This document shows positions 38,125 through 47,825 of a DNA stretch of 64,000 nt, piece by piece (within the stretch, counting starts at the first letter, position 1; every line of letters starts with the position of its first letter). A program made the translations under genes and the position numbers. The notes under the pieces were generated by a model. The model did not search any database, was not told the origin of the DNA, and worked only from the letters and a program-made list of their open reading frames with translations. This stretch comes from Candidatus Methanoplasma termitum (GTDB taxonomy: Archaea > Thermoplasmatota > Thermoplasmata > Methanomassiliicoccales > Methanomethylophilaceae). Location of the stretch: positions 496,001 through 560,000 of the forward strand of contig NZ_CP010070.1 in assembly GCF_000800805.1 (NCBI RefSeq). Reading direction: 5' to 3'.

Positions 38125-39540
38125 TTACAGGCCGTAGTTCTTCTTGTTGTAGTTCGGAACAAGCTCTTTGTACTTCTTGTCGCAGTACTCGGCGAACTTG
38201 GCCTCATCCGCGGGCAGTGCCTCGAGTTCTTTGATGATCGCGTTGAGAACATCTCTCTGTTTCGTGGTCAATCCGAGCTCTTTTGCATCGTTGCCTGCTT
38301 TTACGACCTTTGCTGCCGCGAGACCTGCTGCTTTTGCCCTGAGGTAAATGTTCTTTCCCTCTTTCGCAATTGCCTCTCCAACCTTGAATGCGTTGTCGTA
38401 GGCGAGCATGTATCCCTCGGGTCCTCTTGTCCTGTCCGTTATCATGTACAGGTCTCTGAGGGTTTTCTCCTGTCCGGTCGCGATGGCGGTGTTCATCAGG
38501 GCTACTTCGTAACCCAGTGATCCGAGCCAGCACTGTACAGATGATCCTCCGAACTCAGGGTGGTACTCAACGGACTCGTTGGACCACAGGTCGGTGATCT
38601 GTGCCATCAGGTTACCCTGCAGGTCCGCGTGTGCGCACTGGCAGTTCTTACCCTCTTGGGCAGCCGGCCTTCCGGTGATCGTCTTTATTATCGGTCCCTC
38701 GTATCCGCAGTCTTTGTCCGGTCCTGTTGCTCCGCACTCCATTGCAACCATGGTCCTTGCGGCCGAGATTGCCCTTGTTACTGCAGAGAAGGTCTTCTGA
38801 ACATCCTGGTCCATCATTCCGCCGGCCATGAACATCGAAACGTTCGCTCCGGAACAGTTGGTGTCTCCGCCGGGTGTGACTTTGTTCTTCTTTGCGATGC
38901 TGACGAACTCAGACCATACGTACTCCATGTCGATGGCTCCGAGGTATCCTACACCGTACAGGAACGCAGTTATGTCCTGGCTCGTGACTGCGTAGTCAGC
39001 GAGTTCTTTTCCGCCCATTGTCTCACAAGACAGGACGTTCGCGCCGTTCTCACAAGCGACCTCTGCTGCCTGGAAGAGTGCCTCGGGGTATGCTTTTCCG
39101 CCTACTCCTTTTGCCTTCTTTGCTCCAGTGCGGAGTCCCTCTTCTGCCTCACGCTGGTCAGGGATTGTGTGCCTGACTGCAGTGTTTATGCCGAAGTCTT
39201 TGTGGAATTTCTCTGCGATCTCTGCCTGTCCCTCTACAACGGGTACTGCGAATTTCTTGTCACCCATCTGGGAAACCCACTCTGTCTCCAACTGGAGGTC
39301 GGGGAATCCGAGTGTGATCGCTCTGTTGAGTGCATCTTTGGAGATGTAGTCAACGTACTCTTTTCTGAGCCTGGCCGGGTCTTTCTCAGTTCCGGGCCTG
39401 GGTGCATAGTTCAGTTCGGGTATGACCCTTCCGGCACCTGCTTTTATTCCGAATCCATAGGAGACGGGGGATTTTGCTGTTCCGAAAACGATCTCGTCCG
39501 GGCTTGAGTATGCCATTTTTGTGAATCTTGTTGCTGCCAT
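38125..39540 (-). CDS. mtaB: Methanol:corrinoid methyltransferase MtaB
   Basis: 471 residues. It transfers the methyl group of methanol to the Co(I) of MtaC, the entry step of methanol methanogenesis. The zinc ligands known from Methanosarcina barkeri MtaB (Glu164, Cys220, Cys269) correspond here to Glu173 (CETMGGKE), Cys229 (GDTNCSGAN) and Cys278 (DKDCGYE), a constant offset of nine. The start AATRFTKMAYSSPDEIVFG and end VPNYNKKNYGL fit the family. It starts 2 bases after mtaC. It does not belong to the amber-containing methylamine methyltransferases. Confidence 0.97.
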   Translation of the reverse strand: MAATRFTKMAYSSPDEIVFGTAKSPVSYGFGIKAGAGRVIPELNYAPRPGTEKDPARLRKEYVDYISKDALNRAITLGFPDLQLETEWVSQMGDKKFAVPVVEGQAEIAEKFHKDFGINTAVRHTIPDQREAEEGLRTGAKKAKGVGGKAYPEALFQAAEVACENGANVLSCETMGGKELADYAVTSQDITAFLYGVGYLGAIDMEYVWSEFVSIAKKNKVTPGGDTNCSGANVSMFMAGGMMDQDVQKTFSAVTRAISAARTMVAMECGATGPDKDCGYEGPIIKTITGRPAAQEGKNCQCAHADLQGNLMAQITDLWSNESVEYHPEFGGSSVQCWLGSLGYEVALMNTAIATGQEKTLRDLYMITDRTRGPEGYMLAYDNAFKVGEAIAKEGKNIYLRAKAAGLAAAKVVKAGNDAKELGLTTKQRDVLNAIIKELEALPADEAKFAEYCDKKYKELVPNYNKKNYGL

Positions 39541-39542
39541 GT

Positions 39543-40325
39543 TTAAGCACCTCCGGTGATCTCATCCCACTCTGCCCTGATCTTCTTCCAGCCGTATCCG
39601 GCTTTGATCTTGTCTGCGATGGGCGGTGTCTGCGGGGCTTTCTGAGAGAATATTCCCATGTCGAATGACTCGGCAAAGTCTCTGTTGACTGCGCCACCGG
39701 CTGCCATGAACGGAATGTCAACTTTCTTGGCTTTCAGTTTCTCGGCTGCCCTGGGGAATGCCGTCATTGTCGTGGTCATGAGTGCTGTTCCGGTGACCAT
39801 CAGGGGCTTTGCTTTTATTACCTCTGCGACGACCTCGTCAACAGGCACATCTTTTCCCATGTCGATGACCGAGTATCCGCTGGATCTCAGCATGACTGCG
39901 GCGATGTTCTTGCCGATGTCGTGGGGGTCTCCCTCTGCAACGTGCATTACTACGAGACCTTTTGTCTCTCTTCCACCCTCGATCTTTTTCTCTGCGATCG
40001 CAATTCCGATTTCCATCGTCTTTGCGGCCATCATGATCTCAGGCAGGTAGTAAATGTGGTCTGCGTAGAGCTTTGAAACGATTTCCATTCCGACGACGAG
40101 ACCTTTGTTGATAACGTCGAGGGGTTTCTGTGTTTTCAGCGCGTCAGTTGTGGCAGGGCCTACGTCCTTGAATTTCATCCAAACGACGGTCTCTGCTACT
40201 TTCTTGAGCGCGGGATCCTTCGGCAGCATTTTCTCAGCGATCTTCTCGGGGGAAGCTTCGTTCTGAGCTTTAATGTCATACCTTGTGAGGATCTTTGCGT
40301 AGTCTACTCCTTTTGAGCTAACCAT
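39543..40325 (-). CDS. mtaC: Methanol corrinoid protein MtaC
   Basis: 260 residues: a helical cap domain (about 30-115) and a B12-binding Rossmann domain. The DPHDIGKN motif supplies His135 as the lower axial ligand of cobalt. It accepts the methyl group from MtaB and passes it to MtaA and coenzyme M; mtaA is not in the window. A strong AAAGGAGG ribosome binding site lies 10 bases before the ATG. First gene of mtaCB. Confidence 0.97.
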   Translation of the reverse strand: MVSSKGVDYAKILTRYDIKAQNEASPEKIAEKMLPKDPALKKVAETVVWMKFKDVGPATTDALKTQKPLDVINKGLVVGMEIVSKLYADHIYYLPEIMMAAKTMEIGIAIAEKKIEGGRETKGLVVMHVAEGDPHDIGKNIAAVMLRSSGYSVIDMGKDVPVDEVVAEVIKAKPLMVTGTALMTTTMTAFPRAAEKLKAKKVDIPFMAAGGAVNRDFAESFDMGIFSQKAPQTPPIADKIKAGYGWKKIRAEWDEITGGA

Positions 40326-40551: not shown

Positions 40552-41907
40552 TTAATTCTTTGCGTATTTGTAACAGTTCCCGACAAATCTCCCGGGTATT
40601 TTTGGGTTGGAAGCGAAGTGAATGTGTGTATATCCCGCGACGGTATTCCCGACCACCATACCGTCCCTGCCGTTCTCGATTCCGAACCCTCTGCTGAGAC
40701 GGAACGCATACTTTTCCTGTTTAGCTGACGTCTTTGAATAATGGAACTCGTGTCCTCTGACCGACCAACCTTTCTCACAGAGCATATTGTCTTCCGCGGC
40801 GGTCATCTCGACATAACCGAGGGTCGCCCTGCTGTCGGTCATATTCGACACCGAATCGAAAACACCGCACATCTTGTGCTCCTTTCCATCCAGATCTATC
40901 AGGGACTCGGAAAGATACATCATGCCCCCGCATTCGGCATATATGGGCATCCCGTCATCGGATGCTTTTTTCACGGCAGCCATCATCGAAGAATTCCTTT
41001 CCAGATCGGCCGAGAACAACTCCGGGAATCCGCCTCCGAAATATAGGCCGTCGACGTCTGGAAGGTCGTCATCGATCGGAGAGAAAGGTACTATCTCCGC
41101 ACCCGCCTCCTCCAGAGATTCTATGTTATGTATGTAATAAAAATTAAACGCTTTGTCCTTTGCGACACCGATCCTGACCTTCTTTTTTGGTGGAGTAGTT
41201 TGCCTGTACTCCCTTGATATCGGTGGTGCCGATCTTGCGATGTTTAAGATCTTCTCTATATCGACGCATTTCTCCACATGCTCGGCGATCTTCTCATACT
41301 TTTCGCGGTCGTAGTTCTCCGCTGCGGGAATGAGGCCGAGATGTCTGCTTTCCAGCTTCATGCAGTCATCCCTGAACACCCCGCCCAGGCATGGTATCCC
41401 CTTCAGGGAGCTCTCGAGTATCCTCATATGGTTCGCGCTCCCGACGCGGTTGAATATCACTCCGGCAAGGAAAACATCTTTGTCGTAATCTTTGAACCCG
41501 GCCGCGATCGCACCCGCGCTTCTGGCCATTGATCTGGCATCTATCACTAATATCACCGGGGCCTTCAATATCTTTGAAAGATGGGCGGTCGAACCCTCTT
41601 CGTTGATGCCGTCGACACCGTCGTAAAGCCCCATCACTCCTTCGATGACCGAAATCCCGGACCCTTCCGAACCATTGACGAAGAGTCTTTCCGCCTCGCT
41701 GCCGAACATCCATGTGTCAAGGTTCCTGCATTCTTTTCCCAGTACCATGGTGTGATGCATAGGATCGAGATAATCCGGCCCGGTCTTGAACGATTGAGGG
41801 TCCAGTCCTTTTTTCTGGAGGGTCATCAACAGCCCCATGGTTATTGTCGACTTTCCGGCTCCGCTGTGGGTGGCCGCAATAACTACTCTGGGGATGTTTT
41901 TAGGCAT
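40552..41907 (-). CDS. Cobyrinate or Ni-sirohydrochlorin a,c-diamide synthase (CbiA/CfbB)
   Basis: About 451 residues. An ATP-binding deaminase-like half (IAATHSGAGKSTITMGLL, KTGPDYLDPMHH) is joined to a class I glutamine amidotransferase half with AECGGMMYLSES, whose Cys is the nucleophile, and HIHFASNP. It amidates two carboxylates using glutamine and ATP, either on cobyrinate (B12) or Ni-sirohydrochlorin (F430). The two families cannot be separated by eye; a methanogen may need both. The mtaCB context favours neither strongly. ATG 41907 is preferred to an upstream TTG. Confidence 0.9.
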   Translation of the reverse strand: MPKNIPRVVIAATHSGAGKSTITMGLLMTLQKKGLDPQSFKTGPDYLDPMHHTMVLGKECRNLDTWMFGSEAERLFVNGSEGSGISVIEGVMGLYDGVDGINEEGSTAHLSKILKAPVILVIDARSMARSAGAIAAGFKDYDKDVFLAGVIFNRVGSANHMRILESSLKGIPCLGGVFRDDCMKLESRHLGLIPAAENYDREKYEKIAEHVEKCVDIEKILNIARSAPPISREYRQTTPPKKKVRIGVAKDKAFNFYYIHNIESLEEAGAEIVPFSPIDDDLPDVDGLYFGGGFPELFSADLERNSSMMAAVKKASDDGMPIYAECGGMMYLSESLIDLDGKEHKMCGVFDSVSNMTDSRATLGYVEMTAAEDNMLCEKGWSVRGHEFHYSKTSAKQEKYAFRLSRGFGIENGRDGMVVGNTVAGYTHIHFASNPKIPGRFVGNCYKYAKN

Positions 41908-42036
41908 GTTGGATGTATAGTCCAATTGAGATTCAAACTATAAATAATATTGCTGGCACGACCCCTCTGAGAATATGTATGCTTTTGCGTCTGATTGAAA
42001 GAATAATATATCAACTTGAACAATTACACCGCCAAT

Positions 42037-42624
42037 ATGTATGTTTATATCATCGGCGGATTCCTTGGGAGCGGGAAAACCACACTTTTAATGAAACTTG
42101 CTTCCATGTACAGTAAAAGAGGCGTTAAAGTAGCGATATTGGTGAACGAATCCGGAGAGATCGGCGTCGACGGCGCCACCCTCAAAGCGGAGGGGTACGA
42201 CGCGGTAGAATTGCCTGACGGCTGCATATGCTGCTCCCTTTCGGGAACACTGCAGAGCGCTCTTAAAAACATAAAAAGAGATATTGATCCGGATATCCTC
42301 ATAATCGAGCCTACCGGCCTCGCTCTTCCCCACAAGGTAAGGGAATTGGTGAATATATCGATGATAGATCCCGATGAGATGTATATCATCGGCATAGCGG
42401 ACATTCAGAGGTTCGACGACCTGATAAAAAGGAAAGAGGAGTTCTTTAAACGCCAGATGTTCGCCGCGGATTTCATTCTGATCAACAAGAGCGACCTCGC
42501 CACGCCCGAGAAAATGAAGGCGGCGATCCAATGGCTCAAAGCAGAGTATCCCGACAAACCGATGATCCCGGTATCCACCAAGACCGGGGAGAATCTGGAT
42601 AAAATATACGAGATGATGAAATGA
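42037..42624 (+). CDS. CobW/HypB-like metal-related GTPase
   Basis: 195 residues from ATG 42037, with TATA-like AATAATATATC about 30 bases upstream. Walker A is GGFLGSGKTT at residues 7-16. The metal-binding CxCC (GCICCSL) is near residue 67, EPTGLA is the Walker B region, and INKSDLA gives guanine specificity. It has the COG0523-type GTPase domain but lacks their C-terminal domain, so it is closer in size to UreG and HypB. Such proteins deliver Zn, Co or Ni to enzymes. Its stop overlaps the next ATG (ATGA). Confidence 0.88.
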   Translation: MYVYIIGGFLGSGKTTLLMKLASMYSKRGVKVAILVNESGEIGVDGATLKAEGYDAVELPDGCICCSLSGTLQSALKNIKRDIDPDILIIEPTGLALPHKVRELVNISMIDPDEMYIIGIADIQRFDDLIKRKEEFFKRQMFAADFILINKSDLATPEKMKAAIQWLKAEYPDKPMIPVSTKTGENLDKIYEMMK

Positions 42625-43271
42625 GCGGACACCACCACGATCACGATAAAGAATGCCACTGCAAAGAATGCGAGACGGAAAGGCACGATGAAGAGAAGAC
42701 CTCGATAGAAGAAGCGGGAGGGGTCGCAGTAGGCCTTACCGGCCACATACACGGATACAACGCAGATGTGGGCGCGCGTTTCTCGAACGTATTGCTGACA
42801 ACAGGCAAATGGGTCGAGAAAGAATCGGGTTCGCTGCTCGGACACATCAAAGCCGCGATATACAATTCAGACGGGAAAGGATTGACATTCAACCTTATCA
42901 ACGTAAAGAACGGCGTCGAGCAGCACGGTACGCTCCCGCCGCAGGAGATCGTCAATTTTAATTTCATGTCGGCCGTGGTCGATGTGGACCCTCATGATCT
43001 GGAACATGTGATGCTGGATGCTTTGGTGGACAGCGGGATCGACTACTATCTGGAAAAACATCATCACCACCATGATCACAACCATGGTCATCATCACGAA
43101 CACGATCATCATCACCACGATCATGATCACAACCATCACCACCATCACGATGGTGAGAAGGGCGAGAAAGAGGTCTGCAGCTGCAAAGCATGTGAGGACC
43201 GCAGGATCGAAGTGGCCGAAAGGGCCGAAAAAGGAACCATTTGGGATAAATTGAGGAGGAAGAACAAATGA
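42621..43271 (+). CDS. His-rich protein, probable metal carrier
   Basis: 216 residues. The N-terminus SGHHHDHDKECHCKECE and a C-terminal run (about residues 150-175) of repeated His, Asp and Asn are strong metal-binding sequences, followed by CSCKAC. The middle (about 30-145) is a conserved-looking folded domain with GLTGHIHGYNADVGARFSNVLL. It overlaps both neighbours by ATGA, so the three genes are translated as one unit. No named family is recognised. A metal store or chaperone for the GTPase is inferred from its composition and position. Confidence 0.75.
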   Translation: MSGHHHDHDKECHCKECETERHDEEKTSIEEAGGVAVGLTGHIHGYNADVGARFSNVLLTTGKWVEKESGSLLGHIKAAIYNSDGKGLTFNLINVKNGVEQHGTLPPQEIVNFNFMSAVVDVDPHDLEHVMLDALVDSGIDYYLEKHHHHHDHNHGHHHEHDHHHHDHDHNHHHHHDGEKGEKEVCSCKACEDRRIEVAERAEKGTIWDKLRRKNK

Positions 43272-44899
43272 CAAAGGGATACGGAATATCTCTGGATATG
43301 GGTACCAGTGGTACGAGAGCGCATGCTGTGGATCTTTCCAGCGGAAAGATATTGTCAACATCTGTTACGGAATGCCACCCGCTGCCGGGTGCTAACATAA
43401 TGGATCACCTGACATTCTGCATCAATGTGGGGACAGATCTCGCGCACGAGATAGTAATAGATACCGTGAACAAGGTAATCAAGACCCTCGGTATCGATCT
43501 GAAGAAGGTCGAGAGGGCCGCGATCTGCGGCAACCCCATACAGCTTTCGCTGTTCCAAGGGTTGCGTGTGGACGATCTCGCCTTTGCGGGAGAGAACGCT
43601 CACAAAGCAAGAGGCATAAAACCCGTGGACAGGAACGCCGGTGTTTTCTCGGCCGTTGACGTGGGAATGGAAGTACCTGACGGCTGCGAACTCTTTGTTC
43701 CGCCTTCGATAAGGCATGAGATCGGTGCTGATGCCCTCGCAATGATGTACAAGAGCGGATTCCTTGAGCAGAAAGAGAACTGCCTTGTAACTGATTACGG
43801 GACAAATGCGGAGATGGCCCTGAAAGTGGGTGACGACATCTTTACCGGTTCGGCCGCCGCCGGTCCCGCGATGGAAGGCCAATCGATAAAATACGGTATG
43901 CTGGCAGGCCCGGGCGCCATCAGCGACCTCGAGTACGACTTCAATTGGAGGAACATGGTACTGGACGAGAGCATCATGGCACAGCCCGGAGACAAGGTCG
44001 ACTTCAACCTGAATATGGTCATCGAAGAAGGGCCTATGCACGGTAAGGCAAAAGGCATCACCGGGACCGGCGTTGTCGCCGCGGTCGCCGCCGCCCTTCA
44101 CGACAACCTCTGGGAGAAAGGAAAACTCAACACAAAGGACGGGAAGATGTACTTCCAGGATGGAGTATATATTGATTCTCATGACATTGGCGAAGCGTGC
44201 AAAGCTATCGGTGCAATGAGGGCGGGTCACTTCACACTTCTTGAGAAAGCAGGAATAAAATTCGACGAACTCAACATCATGTACATGGCAGGTGCCTCCG
44301 GGACCTATGTGGATGCCGTCAAAGCGAGAGAAGTGGGCCTCCTGCCTCCTTCCTGCAAGAAGATCTACCAGTACGGTAACACATCGCTTGCAATGGCCAC
44401 GGACATCCTGAAGAACCCCGAGCTCCTTGACGAGCTTCAGACCATAGCAGACGGGATCAGGGCCAACCACGTGATGTTCGCTTCGGATAAGACATTCGAA
44501 CAGATCTACATCATGGAGCTTGCGTACTGGGACGAGGGAATGAGCATGGACATGTACAACATGTTCAACGAGATCGAAGGCATCCAGGAACTGCCGCCCG
44601 TCAAAGGGAACCCCGAGGTCATCAGGGTGGTCAAGCGTGACATCCCCGATCTCGGTGCCAGAGGACTCCGCATCATAAACGACATCGGAACAGAGCTGAA
44701 AGGATACATGAAGGGATGCACCGGCTGCAAGAAGTGCGAGAAGGAGTGTCCCGAGAAGGCGCTCACCGTGATGAAGGACAAGCAGATCGTTGTGAGAACG
44801 AAGAACTGTCTCGGCACCGCCTGCCTGAGATGTCAGTTCTCATGCCCCGAAAAGGTCTACTTGTACGACACTCTGAAGATCGAAAACAAGAAAAAATAA
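43268..44899 (+). CDS. ramA: Corrinoid protein reductive activase (RamA-type)
   Basis: 543 residues. It carries an ASKHA-type ATPase fold (YGISLDMGTSGTRAHAVDL, VTDYGTNAEMALKV, AGPAMEGQSI, ITGTGVVAAVAAAL). The C-terminal Cys-rich region has CTGCKKCEKECPEKAL and CLGTACLRCQFSCPE, for two 4Fe-4S clusters. RamA reduces inactive Co(II) corrinoid proteins to Co(I) with ATP. In this window the likely client is MtaC, encoded nearby on the other strand, though methylamine corrinoid proteins elsewhere are possible clients too. Confidence 0.9.
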   Translation: MTKGYGISLDMGTSGTRAHAVDLSSGKILSTSVTECHPLPGANIMDHLTFCINVGTDLAHEIVIDTVNKVIKTLGIDLKKVERAAICGNPIQLSLFQGLRVDDLAFAGENAHKARGIKPVDRNAGVFSAVDVGMEVPDGCELFVPPSIRHEIGADALAMMYKSGFLEQKENCLVTDYGTNAEMALKVGDDIFTGSAAAGPAMEGQSIKYGMLAGPGAISDLEYDFNWRNMVLDESIMAQPGDKVDFNLNMVIEEGPMHGKAKGITGTGVVAAVAAALHDNLWEKGKLNTKDGKMYFQDGVYIDSHDIGEACKAIGAMRAGHFTLLEKAGIKFDELNIMYMAGASGTYVDAVKAREVGLLPPSCKKIYQYGNTSLAMATDILKNPELLDELQTIADGIRANHVMFASDKTFEQIYIMELAYWDEGMSMDMYNMFNEIEGIQELPPVKGNPEVIRVVKRDIPDLGARGLRIINDIGTELKGYMKGCTGCKKCEKECPEKALTVMKDKQIVVRTKNCLGTACLRCQFSCPEKVYLYDTLKIENKKK

Positions 44900-44931
44900 G
44901 TGGGGCATTCCGCCCCACCAAACATTTTTTT
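44900..44931. terminator. Bidirectional terminator between RamA and the ABC operon
   Basis: GTGGGGC at 44900-44906 pairs with GCCCCAC at 44912-44918. A run of T follows on the plus strand at 44925-44931. Confidence 0.7.
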
Positions 44932-45694
44932 AATTTTCCATTACGTTCTCTTTTTCGAGTTCGGTCAATATCTTCTTACGAAGAGCCGTGAACTCAGGCG
45001 TGGCGCGATCCCTCGGGCGCGGCCAAGGGATCTCGATTATTTCCTTTATGGTTGCGGGGCGCTTGGAAAGGATAACGATCCTGTCAGAAAGGAATACTGC
45101 CTCATCGACCGAGTGGGTGACGAACACTATTGTTTGATCGTCATTCTCTATTATCTTGAGGAGTTGGACCTGCATGATGTTCCTTGTCTGGGCATCCAAA
45201 GAACCAAACGGTTCATCCATGAGTATCACCTCCGGATGTCCGACAAGTGCTCTCGCAATGCCAACACGCTGCTTCATGCCTCCAGACAGCTCGCTTACTC
45301 TCGAATCGATGAAATTCTCCAGACCTGCCAGCTTAATGTATTTCTCTGCCCTCTCGCGACGTTCTGCTTTGGGGACCTTCGATATCTCCATCCCAAACTC
45401 TACATTCTTCCTTACGGTTCTCCATGGGAACAACGCAAAGTCTTGGAACACCATGCCTCTATCCGCTCCTGGCTGAGTTATAGGCACATCGTTCAGAAGG
45501 ATGTGCCCTGATGTGGGTTCTTCCAACCCCGCGATCAGTCTGAGGATGGTGGTCTTGCCGCTGCCGGATGGGCCGACGAGAGTTACGATCTCCCCCTTCT
45601 TTATCTCGAGATTGAAGTCTTGCAACGCCACCACTTCTTTGTCTTCTGCCTTGAAGACCTTAGACAGATATTCTAACTTGATTTCTCCGCTCAT
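44930..45694 (-). CDS. ABC transporter ATP-binding protein (SsuB/TauB-like)
   Basis: 254 residues. Walker A is GPSGSGKTT near residue 41, Q loop VFQDFALFPWRTV, signature LSGGMKQRVGIARAL, Walker B VILMDEPFGSLDA and switch VTHSVDEA. The sequence is typical of the nitrate/sulfonate/taurine subfamily. Its start overlaps the permease stop by four bases. Last gene of the SBP-permease-ATPase operon. Confidence 0.94.
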   Translation of the reverse strand: MSGEIKLEYLSKVFKAEDKEVVALQDFNLEIKKGEIVTLVGPSGSGKTTILRLIAGLEEPTSGHILLNDVPITQPGADRGMVFQDFALFPWRTVRKNVEFGMEISKVPKAERRERAEKYIKLAGLENFIDSRVSELSGGMKQRVGIARALVGHPEVILMDEPFGSLDAQTRNIMQVQLLKIIENDDQTIVFVTHSVDEAVFLSDRIVILSKRPATIKEIIEIPWPRPRDRATPEFTALRKKILTELEKENVMEN

Positions 45695-46635
45695 TCAATC
45701 CCCATCCTCTTTGTAAGCACCTTGTGAACATACTCAAACATTCCGGTCGTAAGTATTCCAAGCACTGCGATAATGCCTATTCCGACGAACACATTCGGCC
45801 AGAATCCGATAGATGCTTGTATTCCTACGAAATAACCTATTCCTCCGCCGTAAGAAGCGTACAGTTCGGATGCGACGATACACATCCACCCTATACCGGA
45901 GCCGATTTTTACTCCGTACATTATATACGGAAGAGCACAGGGGAACATTACCTTATAGAAGATCTGGGCCTTCGATGCACCGAGAGTTTTGGACGCATCG
46001 ATGAGGTTCCTGTCTATCTTTGTAACACCGAACGTGGTGTTCGAAAGCAGCGGGAAGAATATTCCTATGAACACCACTAACATCGGACCCCAAGTGTATC
46101 CTGTTGCAAAGAGAAGTACAGGGGCCCATGCGATAGGTGCTATCGGTCTCAGTATCTCCAACATAGGATTCATGAATTCGCTAAGTGTCTTCGATGAACC
46201 CATCAGAAGTCCCATTGGCACGGCAACCAGCATTGCAAGGACGAACCCGCCGAGGAATCGCTCTAAGCTTATTCCGATGTGCGCCCACATCGTCATTCCA
46301 GATATTGGATCCCCATATGAAAACAAGTTAACAAATGCGGTCCAGACCTGTGTAGGCAGAGGGATCGCAGCCGAATTGACAATATACGAAACGTTCCACC
46401 AGATCAGAACGAAGATCGTCAAAGATGCGATAATGATCAGGACGGTCCTTATCAATCTGTGAAAAATATTCTCCTTGTCGTAAGGAATTTTTTTACCTAC
46501 TCTGTTCATTCCGCCGTTAAAAGTTGTGATTGATCTTTTGAAACCGTTACCTACTCTCTTCAGTCCGCCGTTAAAAGTTGTGATTGATCTTTTGAAACCG
46601 TTACCCTCACTGCTATGATTTGACTTTGTTCTCAT
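45691..46635 (-). CDS. ABC transporter permease with duplicated N-terminal segment
   Basis: 314 residues. After an unusual N-terminus the protein has six or so membrane spans and the EAA-type loop (DASKTLGASKAQIFYKVMFPCALPYIM) of SsuC/TauC-like permeases. The first 47 residues hold two near-identical 18-residue units (GNGFKRSITTFNGG), encoded by a 54-base tandem repeat at 46498-46605. They are not part of the usual family and would lie in the cytoplasm. Confidence 0.92.
   Translation of the reverse strand: MRTKSNHSSEGNGFKRSITTFNGGLKRVGNGFKRSITTFNGGMNRVGKKIPYDKENIFHRLIRTVLIIIASLTIFVLIWWNVSYIVNSAAIPLPTQVWTAFVNLFSYGDPISGMTMWAHIGISLERFLGGFVLAMLVAVPMGLLMGSSKTLSEFMNPMLEILRPIAPIAWAPVLLFATGYTWGPMLVVFIGIFFPLLSNTTFGVTKIDRNLIDASKTLGASKAQIFYKVMFPCALPYIMYGVKIGSGIGWMCIVASELYASYGGGIGYFVGIQASIGFWPNVFVGIGIIAVLGILTTGMFEYVHKVLTKRMGIE
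46498..46605. repeat. 54-base tandem repeat in permease 5' end
   Basis: Two in-frame 54-base copies differ at only a few positions; each encodes 18 residues of the permease N-terminus. Confidence 0.9.
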
Positions 46636-46639
46636 AATA

Positions 46640-47752
46640 TCACCACATATTGACTGTGTTCAACACAACAGGAGGAGATCCAACGAAACCGATCTGGACC
46701 ACTCCCGACATTAGGGCATTCATCACATCTCCACCAGCGCCGAAAGGTGTGCCGAGGTTGAGGGTCAACCCGTATTCGGCGAATATTCCTTCTCTTATCC
46801 CTATATGCAGTGCTATTTGGTGAATATCTTGCGCTAACACACCTACATTGATATTAATGTTTGAAAGATCCGAGTAATATGTCGACGGGCGACCCGCTGC
46901 GAGTGAGATGTAACTGTCATCCACCAGCCAATTAGCGAAAGCGGTAGATGAGTCGAATCCAATTTTATTGATTGTGTTCTTAAGAAGCCCCAGGCTTGAG
47001 TATGTATCCACCATCGTCTCGATACCGGCCCTCAGATTATCCAGTGAGTATGTGTAAACGACGTTTTGAAGTGCTGCGTTAATGACCATTTCGTTGCTTA
47101 CTCCGGCGATGCTCTTTACGTACTCGACAAGTTTAGCATGGTTCGGACTGCTGACATTAACGGCATCTTGCAGCCACACCACAGATGCCGAATATGCAGA
47201 CAGGAATCTCAATACTGCGTTAGGGTTGTCATATACGAACGCTCTGCTTGCGGCCACTACACAACACGGATGTCCCTCCCACAGTTCGCTTGTTGTCCCC
47301 ACACCGTATGCGTTATAAACTCCGGATTGCACTGTGATGTTACTGTAGTGTGCTTCCCACGGTATTCCCCCATCGATCTGCCCCCCAAGCAACGATGTTC
47401 CCATATTCCCTGGAGCGACTGCCGTCCAATAGACTGTATCGCTGTTCCTGACGTCATTGTAAAGTTCGAACTTTAAACCGAGTGTGTTAACAACAAAATC
47501 CATCAAAATCATGTGCTGGATAGATGAGGGGCCCGGGGTAGCAAAAACATGCCCGCCCCAATTAGTTGTTGTATTCGGATCAAATGTTAACCCTATTACA
47601 GAATTACTGGCGAATATTCCAGATCCTTCCTCGTTCACCATTGCCACTATAACAACACGATCTTTCTGTTCAGCATTTTTAGAGAGATATATTGCGCTTC
47701 CGGCAAGGACAACAATAAGAATCACTACGACTGTCCAAACTTTAACGTTCAA
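46640..47752 (-). CDS. ABC transporter substrate-binding protein, apparently circularly permuted
   Basis: About 370 residues from TTG 47752 (a GTG at 47782 is also possible but lies at the TATA box). The N-terminus has a signal-type membrane segment. The next segments VIVAMVNEEGSGIFAS, HVFATPGPSSIQHMILM, IPWEAHYSNI and EGHPCCVVAAS match the middle and later parts of SsuA/NMT1-type binding proteins. The last 70 residues (VGVLAQDIHQIALHIGIREGIF to VQIGFVGSPPVVL) match what is normally the N-terminal start of these proteins. The order of lobes is thus rotated. Likely membrane-anchored outside the cell. Confidence 0.85.
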   Translation of the reverse strand: MNVKVWTVVVILIVVLAGSAIYLSKNAEQKDRVVIVAMVNEEGSGIFASNSVIGLTFDPNTTTNWGGHVFATPGPSSIQHMILMDFVVNTLGLKFELYNDVRNSDTVYWTAVAPGNMGTSLLGGQIDGGIPWEAHYSNITVQSGVYNAYGVGTTSELWEGHPCCVVAASRAFVYDNPNAVLRFLSAYSASVVWLQDAVNVSSPNHAKLVEYVKSIAGVSNEMVINAALQNVVYTYSLDNLRAGIETMVDTYSSLGLLKNTINKIGFDSSTAFANWLVDDSYISLAAGRPSTYYSDLSNININVGVLAQDIHQIALHIGIREGIFAEYGLTLNLGTPFGAGGDVMNALMSGVVQIGFVGSPPVVLNTVNMW

Positions 47753-47780
47753 CGACTCACATCCAAAAAAAAGAACTGAC

Positions 47781-47825
47781 ACAATATATATAACCTTTTT
47801 AGGATATTTTATCCTATTTAGGATA
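47781..47825 (-). promoter_or_regulatory. Promoter with three alternating TAGGATA half-sites
   Basis: TATA-like TTATATATA lies at 47784-47794 on the minus strand. Directly upstream are TAGGATA (47800-47806), TATCCTA (47810-47816) and TAGGATA (47819-47825), making two overlapping inverted repeats with 3- and 2-base spacers. The layout is similar to binding sites of DtxR/MntR-type metal regulators (TTAGG-type half-sites), but the regulator is unknown. It would control the ABC importer. Confidence 0.6.

Follow-up and report, generated by a model that had tools for sequence, protein, structure and literature searches.

A three-gene unit beside methanol methyltransferase genes

The window analysed here is a 64,000-nucleotide stretch of the genome of Candidatus Methanoplasma termitum (NCBI RefSeq assembly GCF_000800805.1, contig NZ_CP010070.1, positions 496,001 to 560,000 of the forward strand), a member of the order Methanomassiliicoccales whose genome is a single contig of 1,488,669 bases. 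It contains a run of three genes that encode a short GTPase of the COG0523/CobW type, a histidine-rich protein of a family designated MID and RamA, a corrinoid reductive activase. The genes overlap by ATGA at both the GTPase/MID and the MID/RamA joints, as had been reported in a preliminary description based on the letters of the sequence. A CobB/CfbB-family gene, mtaC and mtaB precede the trio and are transcribed divergently from it, and the genes of an ABC transporter with an NMT1-type binding protein follow it in convergent orientation (Table 1).

Table 1. Genes and domains of the locus, in window coordinates
Feature	Position	Strand	Basis
Short COG0523/CobW GTPase, 195 aa	42037..42624	+	PF02492 135.9 bits (cut-off 20.7); motifs read from sequence
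MID, 216 aa, His/Asp-rich	42621..43271	+	no Pfam family
MID core domain	42696..43061	+	structure model of 42684-43064
RamA, 543 aa, predicted corrinoid reductive activase with C-terminal 4Fe-4S region	43268..44899	+	TIGR04270 735.1 bits (cut-off 500); MtaB-linked clade in tree
mtaB, methanol:corrinoid methyltransferase	38125..39540	-	PF12176 642.8 bits; NF040651 654.3 bits (cut-off 720)
mtaC, corrinoid protein	39543..40325	-	B12-binding domains; NF040669 278.1 bits (cut-off 450)
CobB/CfbB-family gene	40552..41925	-	above cobB cut-off, below CfbB cut-off
ABC transporter ATPase of linked NMT1-type transporter	44930..45694	-	PF00005 129.1 bits
ABC transporter permease of linked NMT1-type transporter	45691..46635	-	PF00528 62.6 bits
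NMT1-type substrate-binding protein, circularly permuted	46640..47782	-	PF13379 57.5 bits

The first gene is, to judge from its motifs and profile scores, a G domain of the COG0523/CobW type and not of the UreG/HypB type. The protein displays a Walker A motif (GGFLGSGKTT), the sequence GCICC at residues 62–66, a Walker B motif with a glutamate (IIEPTG) and NKSD. The preliminary description had envisaged a UreG/HypB-sized GTPase with a CxCC motif: the motif is present, and the affiliation fails at both curated cut-offs, with 14.4 bits against 204.2 for UreG (TIGR00101) and 45.5 bits against 121.2 for HypB (TIGR00073). The match to the CobW-related selenoprotein NF041053, which spans the full length at 106.2 bits, likewise stays below the cut-off of 180. 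The window GTPase can be aligned to YjiA over residues 3–169 (E 4.9e-16) with conservation of CxCC. Across the locus types described below, GC[IV]CC is found in 54 of 56 type-1 GTPases, the exceptions being one GCACE and one 70-residue fragment, and in all type-2 (12/12) and type-3 (11/11) GTPases.

The third gene, taken from the start to be a corrinoid activase, is predicted to be RamA on the strength of a score above the TIGR04270 cut-off, and its product ends in a ferredoxin-like region.

The MID family and its GTPase partner

The product of the second gene carries the previously noted His/Asp runs at its two ends, and inspection shows a CxCxxC motif near each of these (CHCKEC and CSCKAC). 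These flank a core of approximately 120 residues with an invariant G-H-x-K motif, whose G, H and K are retained in 33 MID members spanning all types. The central domain was initially described as unrecognised. That stands in so far as the window protein belongs to no Pfam family, a Pfam scan of the 33 members yielded a best E of 0.013 and no credible family, and the MID profile reached an E of only 0.52 against PDB sequences; the domain is better regarded as a separate family that probably stands in for the C-terminal domain of CobW proteins.

MID is distributed throughout the order. The window core alone matches 106 of 147 genomes, and a profile built from divergent type-1 MIDs matches 135 of them, with 71 of the 74 high-quality genomes and 29 of the 30 genera represented. 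Of 389 genomes drawn from the phylum, 53 match, all within the order; plasmids gave no match. As a single type-1 sequence retrieves at E<1e-3 49 of 50 type-1 cores and 29 of the other entries, which comprise types 2 and 3 along with some repeats of type 1, the three types are treated here as one family. Scanning genome contigs with MID peptide patterns gave 62 matches, and 'Candidatus Methanoplasma' genomes are among the closest named relatives of the window genome by MID; the three patterns derive from family f1, so these matches say little on distant relatives. In two proteins, L063 4523-5491 (322 aa) and L051 4852-5808, the MID domain is duplicated and the second copy is devoid of G-H-x-K.

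The structure model of the core (pLDDT 92.9, pTM 0.85) predicts a beta-alpha-beta-beta-beta-beta-alpha-beta fold. Its best fold match in the PDB is YjiA (1nij; Foldseek E 0.014, prob 0.99), which is weak, none being found at E ≤0.001. In VIA the model is placed on YjiA residues 214–318, the C-terminal half of that protein, with Z 6.5–6.8, tied with unrelated folds and with other rows reaching Z 8.4.

The GTPase and MID genes are closely linked. In a sample enriched for such loci, the type-2 and type-3 loci having been selected through their GTPase, and with the contig-end ORF L050 dropped from the pair count, a short CobW GTPase gene lies on the same strand no more than 300 nt upstream in all 72 MID genes examined and overlaps MID by four bases in 54. 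MID and RamA are separated by at most 300 nt in 34 cases, with a 4-base overlap in 16. The GTPase-MID-RamA arrangement is far above chance.

COG0523/CobW GTPases commonly, albeit not universally, bear a CobW_C domain in the same protein. No match to CobW_C (PF07683) is detectable in the window GTPase or MID, nor anywhere else in that genome, and genome-wide searches located the domain in one of 24 near-complete genomes. A canonical COG0523 protein in L121 does have it. A MID-like domain terminates fused COG0523 proteins of 357–384 residues. With the MID profile, 11 of 13 such proteins are hit at E<1e-3, the lowest value being 1.6e-9; hhalign relates their C-termini to MID with Prob 85–96, and Pfam detects no CobW_C in the eight of the 13 that were scanned. 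Because MID-like domains end fused COG0523 proteins that lack a detected CobW_C, the first two genes of the trio are best understood as the two parts of one divided COG0523 metal transferase. We consider it likely that GTPase and MID together constitute such an enzyme, in which MID occupies the position of CobW_C, and no homology between the two domains is claimed. The GTPase-MID pair is a real, order-wide module and a new variant of the COG0523 metal transferases.

A gene of approximately 206–217 codons adjoins fused GTPase-MID proteins in L214-L217, L219, L220 and L223; its product may be an unnamed partner, since three copies scanned gave no Pfam match. In Methanosarcina acetivorans, employed as a control genome, a PF02492 match is present and CobW_C is absent, a result that, at the level of profile searches, leaves room for MID in Methanosarcina.

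Three types of locus

Loci with a GTPase-MID pair fall into three types. Type 1 is the arrangement of the window, with GTPase-MID-RamA opposite mtaCB. In type 2, genes for a corrinoid protein and for a methyltransferase of the UroD type are followed by GTPase2-MID2, a small protein ('ZnRib', named by eye) without a Pfam match and a HyuA-type protein that gives no ferredoxin-type Pfam match. In type 3, GTPase3-MID3 has as its neighbour a gene for a radical SAM protein or for topoisomerase I and, in one case, a RACo-like gene named by its similarity to the activase sequence in L091. The preliminary description would have been undermined by a trio that is not conserved or a GTPase that clusters elsewhere with urease or hydrogenase genes; the trio is conserved across Methanomassiliicoccales and no such genes were identified beside the pair, so neither objection applies.

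The composition of the loci varies. UroD/MtaA-family genes accompany type-2 pairs and several solitary pairs, and RamA is absent from the fetched stretch in 15 of 50 type-1 loci. In G076, G082, G116 and G117, among the matches listed, RamA and MtaCB retain a GTPase beside them, and a GTPase-MID pair is located elsewhere in the genome. The M. termitum genome itself carries a second pair, of type 2 (L114 4078-9407; G000:C1:917000-930000). An approximately 800-residue neighbour of type-3 pairs, suspected of being a P-type ATPase or CODH, proved to be DNA topoisomerase I in four copies scanned. The type-3 pairs of L122, L091, L131 and L132 adjoin a gene for DNA topoisomerase I whose product carries C4 zinc ribbons, a proximity that may reflect chance synteny or a zinc link.

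Methanol and methylamine settings of RamA

The placement of RamA was surveyed in 24 near-complete genomes picked for completeness and contiguity, which hold 58 RamA genes over the family cut-off; the counts of MtaB, GTPase and RamA are those among the matches listed. Where RamA lies within 6 kb of MtaB, 19 of 21 copies have a short GTPase within 3 kb, and in the remaining two (G037, G038) mtaCB stands between RamA and the pair. Away from MtaB the figure is 2 of 37: one of these copies is accompanied by an MtaB fragment at a contig end (G119) and the other belongs to a type-2 pair (G142). Within 8 kb of MtmB, none of 18 RamA genes has a GTPase within 3 kb. The association of GTPase, RamA and MtaB yields p 4e-11 in Fisher's exact test, with genome relatedness ignored. 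A simple, testable rule emerges: a RamA for methanol is accompanied by the GTPase pair, and one for methylamines is not.

In the RamA tree, 40 of 41 GTPase-linked copies fall in one clade of 43 rows, and two other clades, of 7 and 11 rows, have no GTPase link. The remaining GTPase-linked copy, L063_3_1616, forms a long branch of unsure placement. The second RamA of M. termitum lies between two pyrrolysine MtmB genes and belongs to a different clade from the window copy. In that locus (L094 5181-11037, at ∼608–614 kb of the genome) the two flanking MtmB genes have an in-frame TAG, and a corrinoid protein and an Amt-like gene are found nearby. The RamA copies of the two settings are members of the same cluster-bearing family and both serve corrinoid proteins. 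MtmB uses pyrrolysine and is not known to be a zinc enzyme.

A proposed zinc-loading step for the methyltransferase

What differs between the two settings is the substrate methyltransferase, MtaB being Zn-dependent and MtmB a pyrrolysine enzyme, and the zinc reading is therefore preferred over one that invokes clusters or cobalt. The most likely function of the GTPase-MID pair, to which we accord roughly even chances, is the loading of zinc into an MtaB-type Zn-dependent methyltransferase. The UroD/MtaA-family genes beside type-2 and several solitary pairs count in favour of this, as do the predicted co-regulation of MA4381 with znuABC and the features of the ZNG proteins described below. In such a scheme the G domain would hold the metal at CxCC. 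MID, with its His/Asp runs, would act as a separate domain of the C-terminal type, binding metal and probably recognizing the client. The two proteins would form a complex and, in a GTP-driven step, transfer zinc to MtaB or, in other loci, to a UroD/MtaA-type enzyme. RamA, the product of the third overlapping gene, would keep the partner corrinoid protein reduced, the mtaC product presumably being its substrate. The preliminary description had proposed a metal maturation step for MtaB zinc, corrinoid cobalt or the clusters: the idea of a metal chaperone fits the data, zinc is the favoured variant, and cobalt and clusters are disfavoured by the MtmB-side RamA copies, which belong to the same cluster-bearing family, also serve corrinoid proteins and dispense with the GTPase.

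Several observations weigh against the zinc-loading scheme or the split-transferase model on which it builds. The window GTPase has Val36 at the position of YjiA Glu37, which is among the residues altered in the triple mutant 4ixn according to the title of that PDB entry, and the last Cys of CxCC is kept in only 4 of 13 fused proteins. The fold match of MID to YjiA is weak and shared with unrelated folds. Comparison of MID with eight canonical CobW_C sequences by hhalign (Prob 0.3–0.4) reveals no kinship, and MID is therefore kept apart from the CobW_C family. The number of histidines in MID tails ranges from 0 to 50, and a His tail is consequently not essential to the family. Among the matches listed, the pair persists without MtaB in G034 (99% complete) and G024 (94%); type-3 pairs have no evident methyltransferase; and the association counts take no account of genome relatedness.

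Alternative roles for the pair

The pair might instead act on corrinoid activation, either by MeaB-like gating of RamA docking to MtaC or by corrinoid loading, in which case the metal motifs would be structural or regulatory. The overlap of MID with RamA in 16 of the 34 close pairs is in keeping with this role, as are the HyuA-type protein that follows type-2 pairs and the RACo gene near one type-3 pair, both of the ASKHA type like RamA, and the fact that some G3E relatives, MeaB among them, serve B12 enzymes (PMC2770081). We nevertheless deem it unlikely: the methylamine RamA loci also activate corrinoid proteins yet have no pair (0 of 18 near MtmB), the pair occurs away from any RamA in the 15 type-1 loci noted above, and metal handling is the better explanation for CxCC and the His runs.

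A further alternative assigns the pair functionally to the ABC transporter, with a part in taking up and storing a metal or a metal chelate, and makes the methyltransferase genes neighbours through shared regulation. The NMT1-type transporter adjoins 24 of 37 type-1 loci of family f1, as against none of 13 of families f5 and f6, and it is also found beside type-1 loci in which RamA and MtaCB are absent. The MID tail is richer in His at loci with the transporter (24 versus 26 loci, Mann–Whitney p 8e-6, with L050, L065, L066 and L082 left out), a comparison that ignores relatedness and is confounded with family. In the binding protein H137, C139, C140, D285 and H287, forming HxCC and DxHQ motifs, are kept in 30 of 30 aligned sequences. 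Its model (pLDDT 93.4) has fold matches to nitrate, bicarbonate, sulfonate and Thi5 proteins and to one zinc-bound protein; given the first four, the cargo, for which coenzyme M is a conceivable candidate, need not be a metal. This point, together with the f5/f6 loci, where GTPase, MID, RamA and MtaCB stay together in the absence of a transporter, renders a transporter function for the pair improbable.

The binding protein is circularly permuted relative to solved relatives, profile positions 326–368 corresponding to the THI5 N-terminus and 131–208 to NrtA 199–276. Another permutation occurs in four relatives (L164, L165, L171, L173), and double binding proteins of approximately 750 residues exist (L178 8781-11039; L060 6484). 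Double proteins and a second permutation are as expected for permutation through duplication.

A supply of cobalt for corrinoid synthesis, or of iron for the 4Fe-4S clusters of RamA, is very improbable: CobW itself serves B12 synthesis (PMC7895991), a CobB/CfbB gene stands between mtaC and the trio in the genus of the window and RamA has a C-terminal cluster region, yet that neighbour is confined among mapped loci to this one genus (L034-L038), the RamA copies beside MtmB manage without the pair, and the type-2 HyuA protein has no ferredoxin-type match.

A broader proposal unites the zinc-loading scheme with the neighbouring functions. GTPase, MID and RamA would then form one maturation machine, in which the GTP-driven loading of zinc into an MtaB- or UroD-type methyltransferase is coupled with an ATP-driven reduction of the corrinoid protein that partners it. 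MID would be a new domain for client recognition, in the position held by CobW_C in other COG0523 proteins, and in f1 the permuted NMT1-type transporter would supply it with a metal or metal chelate. Coupling of the pair to RamA is possible; the machine in its entirety is doubtful. We know of no corrinoid methyltransfer system that possesses such a dedicated metal-loading step.

Significance and relation to known systems

To our knowledge, the acquisition of zinc by MtaB and MtaA has not been studied. The conserved, testable pair proposed here for their zinc supply renders the metal-loading step of the methanol-to-methane route amenable to experiment and, if the proposal is true, heterologous production of an active methanol methyltransferase may need GTPase and MID. 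Furthermore, a previously unnamed domain family, present in nearly all high-quality genomes of the order, is added to the COG0523 proteins, most of which have unknown clients.

The pairing of such a GTPase with RamA had been considered undescribed. The link of COG0523 with mta genes and ramM is, however, not new, as Haas et al. (2009) reported COG0523 subfamily 13 beside mtaA, mtaB, mtaC and ramM in methanogens, including Methanosarcina (PMC2770081). The same source describes MtaA and MtaB as Zn-dependent, the COG0523 gene MA4381 as predicted to be co-regulated with znuABC, and MA4382 as noted in methanol-grown cells. A His-rich partner, a split form and a methanol-only pattern were not found named in the open-access literature. 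Word searches of the main text of Borrel et al. (2014; PMC4153887) found no mention of RamA, CobW, COG0523 or MtaB, and a survey of archaeal gene fusion and fission (PMC11237513) mentions neither CobW nor COG0523. Within the open-access literature searched, the MID family, its split and fused forms and its exclusion from methylamine RamA loci appear to be new.

The closest precedent is subfamily 13, likewise a GTPase beside methanol-methyltransfer genes and a RamA homologue; the passages devoted to it (PMC2770081) make no mention of a separate C-terminal-type partner, a split or an absence from methylamine RamA loci. Nickel GTPases of the UreG and HypB types are G3E-type P-loop proteins of similar length, and the window GTPase differs from them in falling below both curated cut-offs, and no genes for urease or hydrogenase were identified next to the pair. 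YjiA (PDB 1nij, 4ixm, 4ixn) shares with the window protein an alignable G domain with CxCC, and its residues 214–318 are the best fold match of the MID model; it is one chain where two genes are present here, its Glu37 is replaced by Val, and MID has no sequence kinship to CobW_C. The eukaryotic zinc transferases ZNG1 and ZNG2 likewise possess a G domain of the COG0523 type with CxCC. MetAP1 receives its zinc from ZNG1, and Arabidopsis ZNG2A has His/Asp or His/Glu stretches between the GTPase and C-terminal domains (PMC10642216), a feature reminiscent of the His-rich stretches of MID. These proteins are encoded by one gene instead of two and have another C-terminal domain, and their counterparts in client and metal would here be MtaB and zinc. 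RamA, finally, conforms to its known family (TIGR04270), within which the window copy belongs to the MtaB-linked clade.

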